Assembly: GCA_024655825.1 (NCBI GenBank)
Contig: JANLFJ010000010.1
Coordinates: 1 to 64,000, forward strand
Reading direction: 5' to 3'
Length of the DNA stretch: 64,000 nt
Source of the DNA: Peptococcaceae bacterium
GTDB lineage: Bacteria > Bacillota > Peptococcia > DRI-13 > PHAD01
Of the stretch, positions 48,308-52,929 are shown piece after piece (positions within the stretch are counted from its first letter, which is position 1; every line of letters starts with the position of its first letter). A program made the translations under genes and the position numbers. Under the pieces are notes generated by a model. It was not told where the DNA came from. It searched no databases and worked only from the letters and a program-made list of their open reading frames with translations.

Positions 48308-48811
48308 TTGAAGGATAACGTCGTCAGGCTCGGCCTTGCAAGCATGGCCCGGGAGTACCGGGAGCAAACGGCGATCTACGAAGAGATGCGCCGGCTTGCG
48401 CTTGAACAGGAAAAATGCCTGCAGCAGCCGGAAGTAGACACCGATTTGCTTATGGAATTATTAAACCGGCGCCAGGAAATGATCAACAGCCTGGAGGAAA
48501 GGAACAGGAATATGGGCCAGTTGAAGGAAGAGATCAGGCTGGCCCTGGGTATTGACGAGTTCACGATCGGCCAAATTTCGGCTTGCCTTAACGCCGCGGA
48601 GATTGAAGAGCTGGCGGAGAGCATGGAAAAACTAAGCATGGTCCTGGTGGAAATCAAAGAGCTTGACAGGAAAAACGAGCAAGCCATGCGGCACCATATC
48701 CAGGAAACCGCCGGGAAACTGAACCGGCTCCAGCACGGCAGGAAGGCGCGGAAAGCCTACCAGCCCGGGCTGGTAAACAAAGATGGTGTGTTTATCGATT
48801 ATTCAAAATAG
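48308..48811 (+). CDS. fliT: FliT-like flagellar chaperone
   Basis: The 167-residue all-helical, coiled-coil-rich protein (REYREQTAIYEEMRRLALEQ, MELLNRRQEMINSLEERNRN) lies where B. subtilis has fliT. FliT is the chaperone of FliD. Sequence similarity in this family is low, so the name rests on position and helical pattern. The last 20 residues (YQPGLVNKDGVFIDYSK) look like a conserved flexible tail. The start is a TTG, 3 bases after fliS. Confidence 0.6.
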   Translation: MKDNVVRLGLASMAREYREQTAIYEEMRRLALEQEKCLQQPEVDTDLLMELLNRRQEMINSLEERNRNMGQLKEEIRLALGIDEFTIGQISACLNAAEIEELAESMEKLSMVLVEIKELDRKNEQAMRHHIQETAGKLNRLQHGRKARKAYQPGLVNKDGVFIDYSK

Positions 48812-48813
48812 GA

Positions 48814-48851
48814 ATAAAAAAGGCATCGGCAGGGATGCCTTCTTTATTTTT
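48814..48851 (+). terminator. Rho-independent terminator of the flagellar operon
   Basis: AAGGCATC and GATGCCTT form a stem around GGCAGG, followed by a CTTTATTTT run. It ends the flaG-fliS-fliT-like genes. Confidence 0.7.
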
Positions 48852-49045
48852 CCGGCTTTTTGTGCAGATTGTTTTGCCAAATTTTTTCGATAACCCGTGA
48901 AATTCGGCGTAATTTTTGGCCGGAACTTGGGAGACAAGGCTTTTTGAATCGCTAAAAAAATATGTTTTTCGACAGTGTATAGGACCTTTTTCCTGTTAGG
49001 AGACAGGTAACATATATGTAAAATAATGTAAGCAATAATTTTTTT

Positions 49046-49106
49046 TTATCCACATTTGGACCATTCACCATCAGAGTTATCAACAGTTTTATACACATTA
49101 TCCACA
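49046..49106 (+). other. Cluster of four DnaA boxes
   Basis: Exact matches to TTATNCACA at 49046-49054 (TTATCCACA), 49089-49097 (TTATACACA) and 49098-49106 (TTATCCACA), plus one near match TTATCAACA at 49077-49085. All are on the plus strand. The last two touch, and the second lies 3 bases before the third. AT-rich DNA surrounds them. The gap 48852-49215 holds no gene; the boxes are the main feature seen in it. Known DnaA clusters away from the origin regulate genes or titrate DnaA. Confidence 0.7.
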
Positions 49107-49215: not shown

Positions 49216-49244
49216 TTGACTAAGGCAATATCCGGTGCTATAAT
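49216..49244 (+). promoter_or_regulatory. Sigma-A promoter of the cold shock gene
   Basis: TTGACT (49216-49221) and TATAAT (49239-49244) are 17 bases apart. The leader to the start codon is about 45 bases, short for a cold shock gene. The DnaA-box array ends 110 bases upstream. Confidence 0.85.
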
Positions 49245-49294
49245 CAACACGGTGGAGATTCCACGCGTATTTAGTTTTAGGAGGAATGTTTTTG

Positions 49295-49492
49295 ATGCAG
49301 GGCAAAGTTAAATGGTTCAACAAGGAAAAAGGGTACGGCTTTATCGAGCGGGAAGGCGGCTCCGACGTTTTTGTACACTTTTCCGCTATTCAGGAGGAGG
49401 GGTTTAAGACCCTTCAGGAGGGAGAGATTGTCCAATTCGAAATAGTGGAGGGGCCCAAGGGTTTGCAGGCGGCGAACGTAATCAAAGCCTAA
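49295..49492 (+). CDS. csp: Cold shock protein (CspA/CspB family)
   Basis: The 65-residue protein is one cold shock domain: [20 protein letters not shown] with RNP1 (KGYGFIE) and VFVHFSAIQ (RNP2). It binds single-stranded RNA and acts as an RNA chaperone. I chose the ATG at 49295, about 10 bases after GGAGG. The ATG at 49286 sits almost on the ribosome site. A promoter and DnaA boxes lie upstream. Confidence 0.95.
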
Positions 49493-49553: not shown

Positions 49554-49634
49554 GGCAGGAAACAGTGTGGGCAGGATTTTTTTGGGTTGAGGGGAATAAT
49601 TATATTAACAGCAATTTGAAGAGGAGTGGATGGC

Positions 49635-50162
49635 ATGAGGTTTCAAATAAGGGGCAAAAACATGCAGTTAAGCGATGCCTTGAAGGAGTACGTGGAAAAA
49701 AGAGTAGGCAAGCTGGAGAAGTACTTTGAAAACAACCCCGAAGCTATCGTCACTCTTGTTGTGGAGAAGGAGAGGCACCGCGTGGAGGTGACCATGCCTA
49801 TCAACGGGTACATCCTGCGCGGCGAAGAAGAGTCGACGGACATGTACGCCTGTATCGACCTGGTGGTGGATAAGCTGGAAAAACAGATCAACAAGTACAA
49901 GACGCGCTTGAACAGGAAAAACAAGGGACTGAGCATTAGGGAGATGACTCCTGAAACGGAAATCCCTGTTGAAGAATACAAAGAACCGGAAGTGGTCAGG
50001 ACGAAGCGTTTTGCCATTAAACCGATGGCGGTGGAAGAGGCCATCATGCAGATGAACCTTTTAGGCCACAACTTTTTTGTTTTTTCCAACGCGGAGACGG
50101 AAGAGGTAAATGTTGTTTACCGGCGCAAGGACGGGAACTACGGTCTGATTGAGCCGGAATAA
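49635..50162 (+). CDS. hpf: Ribosome hibernation promoting factor HPF (long form)
   Basis: The 175-residue protein has the HPF/YfiA N-terminal domain (MRFQIRGKNMQLSDALKEYV, VTLVVEKERHRVEVTMPI) and the long-form C-terminal dimerisation domain (VVRTKRFAIKPMAVEEAIMQ, MNLLGHNFFVFSNAETEEVN, VVYRRKDGNYGLIEP). The C-terminal domain joins two ribosomes to inactive 100S dimers. I chose the ATG at 49635, 8 bases after GAGGAG. Confidence 0.95.
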   Translation: MRFQIRGKNMQLSDALKEYVEKRVGKLEKYFENNPEAIVTLVVEKERHRVEVTMPINGYILRGEEESTDMYACIDLVVDKLEKQINKYKTRLNRKNKGLSIREMTPETEIPVEEYKEPEVVRTKRFAIKPMAVEEAIMQMNLLGHNFFVFSNAETEEVNVVYRRKDGNYGLIEPE

Positions 50163-50265: not shown

Positions 50266-52929
50266 ATGGTGCTGGGTTTACTAAAAAATATTTTTGATGA
50301 AAACATCAGGGAAGTCAGGCGGCTGAGCAAAAAGGTGGAGACGATAAACAGGCTTGAACCCGGGATGCGCTCTTTGAGCGACCGGGAACTGCGCGCCAAG
50401 ACGGAGCAGTTCAGGGAGCGCCTGGCCGGGGGAGAAACCCTTGACGACATCCTGCCGGAGGCCTTTGCCGTTGTCCGGGAAGCCTCCCGCCGGGTTTTGG
50501 AGCTGAGGCATTTTGATGTCCAACTGATTGGCGGCATGGTCCTCCACGAGGGAAAAATCGCCGAGATGAAAACCGGTGAAGGCAAAACCCTGGTGGCTAC
50601 CCTTCCCGCCTACCTGAATGCCCTGACGGGCCGGGGAGTGCACATCGTCACGGTCAATGACTACCTGGCTACGCGCGACAGCGAATGGATGGGCCAGGTT
50701 TATAAGTTCCTCGGGCTGTCGGTGGGCCTGATCGTGCACGGTCTCGATTTTGAAGAACGCAAGAGAGCCTACAACGCGGATATAACGTACGGCACCAACA
50801 ACGAGTTCGGCTTCGATTACCTCAGGGACAACATGGTCTTTCATCCCGACCACATGGTGCAGAGAGGGCTGCATTACGCCATCGTGGACGAGGTGGACAG
50901 CATCCTCATCGACGAGGCCCGCACTCCTCTCATCATTTCCGGGACCGGCGACAAGCCGAAGGACCTCTATAAAAAGGTGGCCCGGATCATCCCGCGCCTC
51001 AAAAAGGAAGAAGACTACACCGTTGATGAAAAAGCCAGAATCGTCACGCTTACGGAGAAGGGCGTGGAGAGGGTTGAAAACATGCTGGGCGTGGATAACC
51101 TCTACGATGACGTAAACATCGAGCTGAGCCACCACGTCAACCAGGCCCTGCACGCTCATGTCATCATGAAGAGGGATGTCGATTACGTCGTCAAAGACGG
51201 CCAGATCATCATTGTCGATGAGTTTACCGGGCGGCTCATGTTCGGGCGCCGGTACAGCGAAGGATTGCACCAGGCCATAGAGGCCAAGGAAGGGGTCGAC
51301 ATCGAAAAGGAGTCCCAGACCCTGGCCACCATCACCTTCCAGAACTATTTCCGAATGTACGAAAAACTTGCCGGCATGACCGGCACGGCCGTGACCGAAG
51401 AAGAGGAATTCAGAAAGATATACAAGCTCGATGTCGTCGTCATTCCCACCAACAAGCCCATGATCCGCAAGGATATGCCGGACGTCGTCTACCGCACGGA
51501 GGCCGGCAAGTTCAACGCCGTGGTGGACGAGATTGAAAGACGGACCAAGCAAGGCCAGCCTGTGCTGGTTGGGACCATATCCATAGAAAAATCGGAACGC
51601 CTTTCCGAAATGCTGAAAAAAAGGGGCATCGAGCACCAGGTCCTAAACGCCAAGTTTCATGACCTGGAGGCCCACATCGTGGCCCAGGCCGGGCGGAAAG
51701 GGGCCGTTACCGTATCCACCAACATGGCCGGTCGCGGTACCGACATCCTGCTGGGAGGCAACCCCGGCTACCTGGCCCGCCAGGAGATGCTCAAACAGGG
51801 CTACGAGTCTCATGTGATCGAAGAAGCGGCCAGCTACAGCGCGGTGGAGGATCCCGGCATCCTGCGGGCCAGGGAACACTACCGGCGGCTGTACGAGGCC
51901 AAGAAGGTGGAAACCGACAAGGAACACGAGGAAGTCGTGAAACTGGGCGGTCTCCATATTATCGGCACGGAACGGCACGAGAGCAGGCGCATCGACAACC
52001 AGCTGCGCGGCCGTTCGGGACGCCAGGGAGACCCCGGCTCCAGCCAGTTCTACATTTCCCTGGAGGATGACCTCATGCGCCTCTTCGGCGCCGAAAACAT
52101 CATGGGACTCATGGACAGGCTGGGGATGGACGATTCGATTCCCATCGAGAACAACCTCATTTCCAGGGCTATCGAGAACGCGCAGCGCCGGGTGGAGAGC
52201 CGCAACTTCGATATCCGCAAGCACGTCCTGGAGTACGACGACGTCATGAACCAGCAGCGGGAGGTCATCTACGGCCAGCGCCGCAAGGTCCTGATGGGAG
52301 AAGACATGAAGGAGAGCATCCTGGAGATGATCGGGAAGGTGGTCAACCGGACTGTGGACCGTTTCGCCGGGGAAAGCAGGTACTCGGAGGAATGGGACCT
52401 CAAGGGGATGCTCGAGCAGGCCAGGCATGTTTTCCTGCCGCGGCACACCCTGACGCTGGCGGACCTGTCCAAACTGGAAGACAAAGAGATCAGGGAGCTG
52501 TTGTTGGGCGAAGCGTGGAAAGATTACGAGAAAAGAGAGAAAGAACTGGGACCGGAAAACATGCGGGAACTGGAGCGCCTGGTCACGCTCAGGGTGGTGG
52601 ACAACAAGTGGATGGGCCATCTGGACGCCATGGACCAGCTGCGCCACGGCATCGGGCTGCGGGCTTACGGCCAGCGGGATCCCCTGGTTGAATACAAGTA
52701 TGAAGCCTATGACATGTTTAACCAGATGATCGAGGAAATCCAGGAAGAAATCGTGCGCTACGTCTATCACGTCACCTTCGTGGAAAGACCGAAGGAGAGG
52801 GAGGATTTGGTCGAAAACCGCGGGGAGGGCGAAGTGAAAAGAACGCCGGTCACAAGCCGCAAAATCGGCCGGAATGATCCCTGCCCCTGCGGCAGCGGGA
52901 AAAAATACAAAAAATGCTGCGGGAAATAG
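50266..52929 (+). CDS. secA: Preprotein translocase ATPase SecA
   Basis: The 887-residue motor drives proteins through SecYEG. Visible motifs are [20 protein letters not shown] (Walker A), [20 protein letters not shown] (DEVD Walker B), and the helicase motif [14 protein letters not shown]. The C-terminal [17 protein letters not shown] zinc motif, which binds SecB or ribosome-linked partners, is present. Length and layout are standard. It is followed 13 bases later by prfB, as in many Firmicutes. Confidence 0.96.

Follow-up and report, generated by a model that had tools for sequence, protein, structure and literature searches.

A DnaA-box array upstream of csp-hpf-secA shares its geometry with modules at two addresses across Bacillota and probably acts as a DnaA-box cluster outside the origin

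The window (the whole 64,000-nt stretch of DNA analysed) carries four boxes for DnaA, the initiator protein of chromosome replication, on the + strand at positions 49046-49106, in the intergenic region between a flagellar operon and a cold-shock gene. The gene order around the array is fliD-fliS-flgN/fliT, array, csp-hpf-secA-prfB, and the features of this region are as follows.

48308-48811, + strand: FlgN/FliT-like flagellar chaperone, the gene left of the array
48820-48841, + strand: terminator-like hairpin ending the flagellar operon, upstream of the array
48968-48974, + strand: Spo0A-box-like heptamer TTCGACA (reverse complement TGTCGAA), of a kind enriched near hpf-class modules
49046-49054, + strand: DnaA box 1, TTATCCACA, exact, 22 nt 5' of box 2
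49077-49085, + strand: DnaA box 2, TTATCAACA, one mismatch (A at position 6)
49089-49097, + strand: DnaA box 3, TTATACACA, exact, 3 nt 3' of box 2
49098-49106, + strand: DnaA box 4, TTATCCACA, exact, abutting box 3
49077-49106, + strand: three-box core of 30 bp, gaps (3,0), kept across Bacillota at hpf and tsaD
49216-49244, + strand: csp promoter TTGACT-N17-TATAAT, 11/12 matches, 110 bp 3' of box 4
49286-49492, + strand: cold-shock protein gene csp (CSD, PF00313)
49626-50162, + strand: Hpf, long-form ribosome hibernation factor (S30AE, PF02482 and PF16321)
50266-52929, + strand: SecA, the next gene in the conserved locus, recognised from its own sequence

An earlier sequence-only reading had described three exact boxes and one near match on one strand within 61 bp, the last two touching and the second 3 bases from the third, with an AT-rich flank and a density not expected by chance. 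Each of these points was borne out. The boxes start at offsets 0, 31, 43 and 52, leaving gaps of 22, 3 and 0 nt, and the intergenic region of 474 bp is 39% GC. Equally dense arrays were recovered in 0 of 2,000 dinucleotide shuffles of this region and in 0 of 60 shuffles of the window. Within the window, exact TTATNCACA sites are confined to the array; the genome-wide count proposed in that reading, made by pattern searches of the 3.16-Mb draft, returned 108 exact sites versus 47 for a reversed control pattern. The box 2 variant with A at position 6 is frequent at other loci too (consensus TTATYAACA). A search for structured RNA with Rfam gave as its sole match a sub-threshold cspA hit over the csp gene (22.2 bits; gathering score 78). 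Elsewhere in the window, GC content falls to 0.38-0.45 between about 33000 and 40000, compared with about 0.57 in the surroundings, suggesting a horizontally acquired island.

We compared relatives for loss of the boxes and found them conserved. Five genomes of the same order (G001, G003, G005, G006 and G010) carry four boxes at identical offsets upstream of csp-hpf-secA, and two further genomes (G017 and G023) carry four boxes at offsets 0, 30, 42 and 51. Pairwise identity among the relatives was 95% in the boxes, 49% in the inter-box spacers, and 36% and 32% in the 100-bp flanks; judged from these alignments, the boxes and their spacing stay while the surrounding sequence changes freely. A sequence resembling the csp promoter is also visible in relatives. 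The genome under study holds a second array with the same offsets on another contig (C42), where its neighbours are a gene resembling corC and the cluster tsaD-rimI-tsaB-tsaE, tsaD being a tRNA-modification gene. This locus (L001) had been a candidate for oriC and was rejected as such, being the tsaD locus; the boxes at the genome's own oriC, on contig C1, are arranged differently from those of the array. Separately, two facing consensus DnaA boxes and a third were seen just past a transposase-like ORF at a contig end (G000 C7:752-810, L003).

We scanned 84,980 prokaryote genomes with a four-box pattern that allowed 15 gap combinations, and at least 120 stretches matched. Among the matches listed, all 80 titles were Bacillota or MAGs so named, and 113 of 121 had gaps of 21-23 nt followed by 3 nt. 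So as not to fix the spacing in advance, we searched 399 Bacillota genomes for three boxes and let each gap take any value from 0 to 12 (169 gap combinations). This search returned 129 matches, as opposed to 0 for the reversed control pattern, and 101 of the 129 matches listed had gaps of exactly (3,0). These strict cores came from only 87 of the 399 genomes, so the core is not universal, and strict patterns undercount variant modules; named Bacillus-type tsaD loci, for example, often have gaps of (20,4,0) instead. Because the surveyed genomes share ancestry, such counts gauge conservation and not a number of independent events. At -31 to -33, a degenerate box 1 was the most or second most over-represented additional box in both address classes, indicating that the four-box layout seen in the window is the general one.

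We annotated 98 of the 101 cores with about 4 kb of flank on each side, the remaining 3 being already known. With neighbouring genes called by BLAST against a small reference set (the window's own and related proteins, SecA included), 58 cores lay at tsaD and 36 at the comFC/fliT–csp–hpf–secA locus, leaving 4 at other places. The 36 comprise 32 at csp/hpf/secA and 4 beside the comFC, Zn-finger or transporter genes typical of that locus. For a 3-Mb genome we estimate the chance of a core falling within 4 kb of the two genes at about 0.5%. Orientation was constant: TsaD lay on the opposite strand and to the right of the core at 58/58 loci, while Hpf ran in the same direction as the core at 33/33 hpf-class loci. 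Every genome with two annotated cores (14/14) had one at each address. At tsaD the core follows closely on the 3' end of tsaD or corC, and at some loci the genes on either side of it converge. At the hpf address, which is almost always upstream of the csp-hpf gene set, an amino-acid ABC-transporter operon puts about 2.6 kb between core and csp-hpf in several genomes, and three Paenibacillus loci have the module pointing the opposite way with respect to csp. The Spo0A-box-like heptamer was counted within about 250 bp of the modules: TTCGACA occurs in 20/72 and TGTCGAA in 9/72 hpf-class loci, where about 0.01-0.04 per locus is expected, and in 2/35 and 0/35 tsaD-class loci, respectively.

We measured the separation from dnaA at 11 sites in near-complete or single-contig genomes; it ranged from 7 to 35% of chromosome length. 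A constant distance to oriC is thus unsupported and does not explain the conserved addresses, and distances this variable give weak evidence that position matters.

The sequence-only reading had offered three functions for the array: a DnaA-titrating cluster, a DnaA-controlled promoter for the cold-shock gene, or an origin-like element. The last of these did not hold up. That reading had noted that the array is not next to dnaA in the window; dnaA is absent from the window and lies on contig C1, within a rpmH/rnpA-dnaA-dnaN-recF origin region. We found no GC-skew switch in the window, where cumulative skew rises monotonically, and no DnaA-trios either in the window or at any of 118 hpf- or tsaD-class loci. 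The tandem, closely spaced boxes do resemble the basal unwinding system of oriC (DnaA-box#6/7 and DnaA-trios), and in some Bacillota dnaA-dnaN origins the identical (3,0) core stands directly beside trios: at four oriC loci the same three-box core is followed immediately by tandem YTA trinucleotides. In contrast, the hpf and tsaD modules lack trios, dnaA and dnaN. Absence of trios together with absence of a skew switch indicates that the element is a predicted DnaA platform lacking the part that unwinds DNA. With oriC located elsewhere, these findings rule out the array as the origin, and we consider a secondary or relic origin extremely improbable.

The promoter reading stays live. It holds that DnaA acts as a transcription factor at an upstream control region, tying expression of csp-hpf(-secA) to the replication state, perhaps jointly with Spo0A bound to the 0A-like box. 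The strong csp promoter downstream of the array, the nearly constant upstream position of the hpf copy and the fixed direction of Hpf all suit such a role, as does the enrichment of 0A-like heptamers at hpf-class but not tsaD-class loci; moreover, DnaA of B. subtilis activates sda from a cluster that favours its ATP form (PMC4447404). However, the boxes lie far upstream for direct contact with RNA polymerase, and three features of the survey argue for a shared function beyond transcription, namely the identical core 3' of tsaD (between convergent genes in some loci), the transporter operons interposed at several hpf loci, and the inverted Paenibacillus modules. We therefore regard transcription control as an unlikely account of the module, while an added effect on csp-hpf transcription is possible and would not be the common function. 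A further alternative is that the array reactivates DnaA as the E. coli DARS loci do, rather than titrating or inactivating it. The presence of two sites in a genome, with the same spacing of boxes, recalls DARS1 and DARS2, which share a core spacing (PMC5742627). Against this, box I of the DARS core is inverted relative to boxes II and III and DARS works on ADP-DnaA, whereas here all boxes point in one direction, as in datA, and in B. subtilis the site at this tsaD address has a preference for ATP-DnaA. Box orientation rules out membership of the DARS class proper, and a DARS-like activity appears very unlikely.

Of the three functions first proposed, a titrating or regulatory cluster is the best supported, given a geometry that recurs phylum-wide at two addresses and a tsaD core that is usually 3' of a gene and not in its promoter. 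We conclude that the array is probably a platform for DnaA assembly away from the origin, that is, a DnaA-box cluster predicted from its sequence to bind or titrate ATP-DnaA. With its fixed geometry across many Bacillota at just two addresses, the module is most likely an ancient site that controls the timing of replication and not an origin. DnaA, preferentially in its ATP form, would bind cooperatively and head to tail, with nucleation on boxes 3 and 4, the touching consensus pair, and recruitment first to box 2 and finally to box 1. Without DnaA-trios the oligomer would be unable to melt the duplex as it does at oriC, and so would hold or inactivate ATP-DnaA instead. Passage of the fork would duplicate the site, doubling its capacity and restraining premature re-initiation at oriC, in a mode of action like that of B. 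subtilis DnaA-box clusters (DBCs) or E. coli datA.

Precedents for a platform of this kind are known. Like the B. subtilis DBCs, the array is an intergenic DnaA-box cluster outside oriC. Deletion of six DBCs in B. subtilis leads to early initiation (PMC5295017, PMC13220808), which is partly relieved when one DBC is put back (PMC5295017); DBC deletions have a clear effect only when combined. The tsaD address, shared by the second copy in the genome under study and by modules across Bacillota, matches the known B. subtilis DnaA-binding cluster gcp(tsaD)/ydiF. This region binds DnaA in vitro with a Kd of 0.15 uM for the ATP form, and 16-fold more of its DNA was recovered with ATP- than with ADP-DnaA at 55 nM (PMC4447404). 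It differs from the module in that 10 sites were counted there in B. subtilis (PMC4447404), compared to the fixed 3-4-box geometry described here. The hpf address does not appear in the list of top B. subtilis DnaA regions in PMC4447404 and has no known B. subtilis counterpart. If some lineages, apparently B. subtilis among them, lost the hpf copy, this would explain why it was not detected there. In E. coli, every essential box of datA has the same direction, while DARS box I is inverted (PMC5742627). The array shares with datA the unidirectional boxes and the conserved position of a non-coding cluster; datA acts outside oriC on ATP-DnaA, and the array would act in the same manner. It differs from datA in box spacing, and datA needs IHF, which B. 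subtilis lacks. Reviews describe B. subtilis as being without datA and DARS, and its DnaA-box clusters only as holding free DnaA. In the literature searched, no paper mentioned a DnaA box together with hibernation promoting factor, yvyD or tsaD, and we came across no description of the hpf address or of the pairing of the two addresses.

More tentatively, the paired addresses may reflect an ancestral two-site, datA-like system of DnaA control in Bacillota, with standard modules at hpf and tsaD kept through most of the history of the phylum. If this is true, linkage to hpf would couple replication initiation capacity directly to ribosome hibernation. A fixed module at two syntenic addresses makes restraint of initiation outside Proteobacteria directly testable by way of two short intergenic sequences. 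It also provides a defined ligand with which to ask what makes some clusters favour ATP-DnaA, a question described as unresolvable for want of examples (PMC4447404).

Several minor observations were made in the course of the survey. Many hpf-class modules of Clostridia (e.g. L053, L057, L092, L104 and L131) carry a near-ACAAAACANNTGTTTTGT palindrome about 10-25 bp past box 4, possibly a second protein site or a hairpin; no ACAAAACANNTGTTTTGT-like palindrome is present in the window. One 6-Mb genome (G351) contains four TTATCCACA-N12-TTATTCACA-N12-TTATCCACA arrays, on contigs C3, C17, C21 and C26, which represent a different DnaA-box design amplified in a single genome. In several Bacillaceae (L088, L113, L119 and L168), four-box modules lie downstream of a gene for an RlmCD-like RNA methyltransferase, possibly a third address of the module. 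Finally, in MAGs of gut Clostridia (L062, L064, L068, L071, L122, L129, L139 and L162) the module lies downstream of a gene for a DUF1294 membrane protein.
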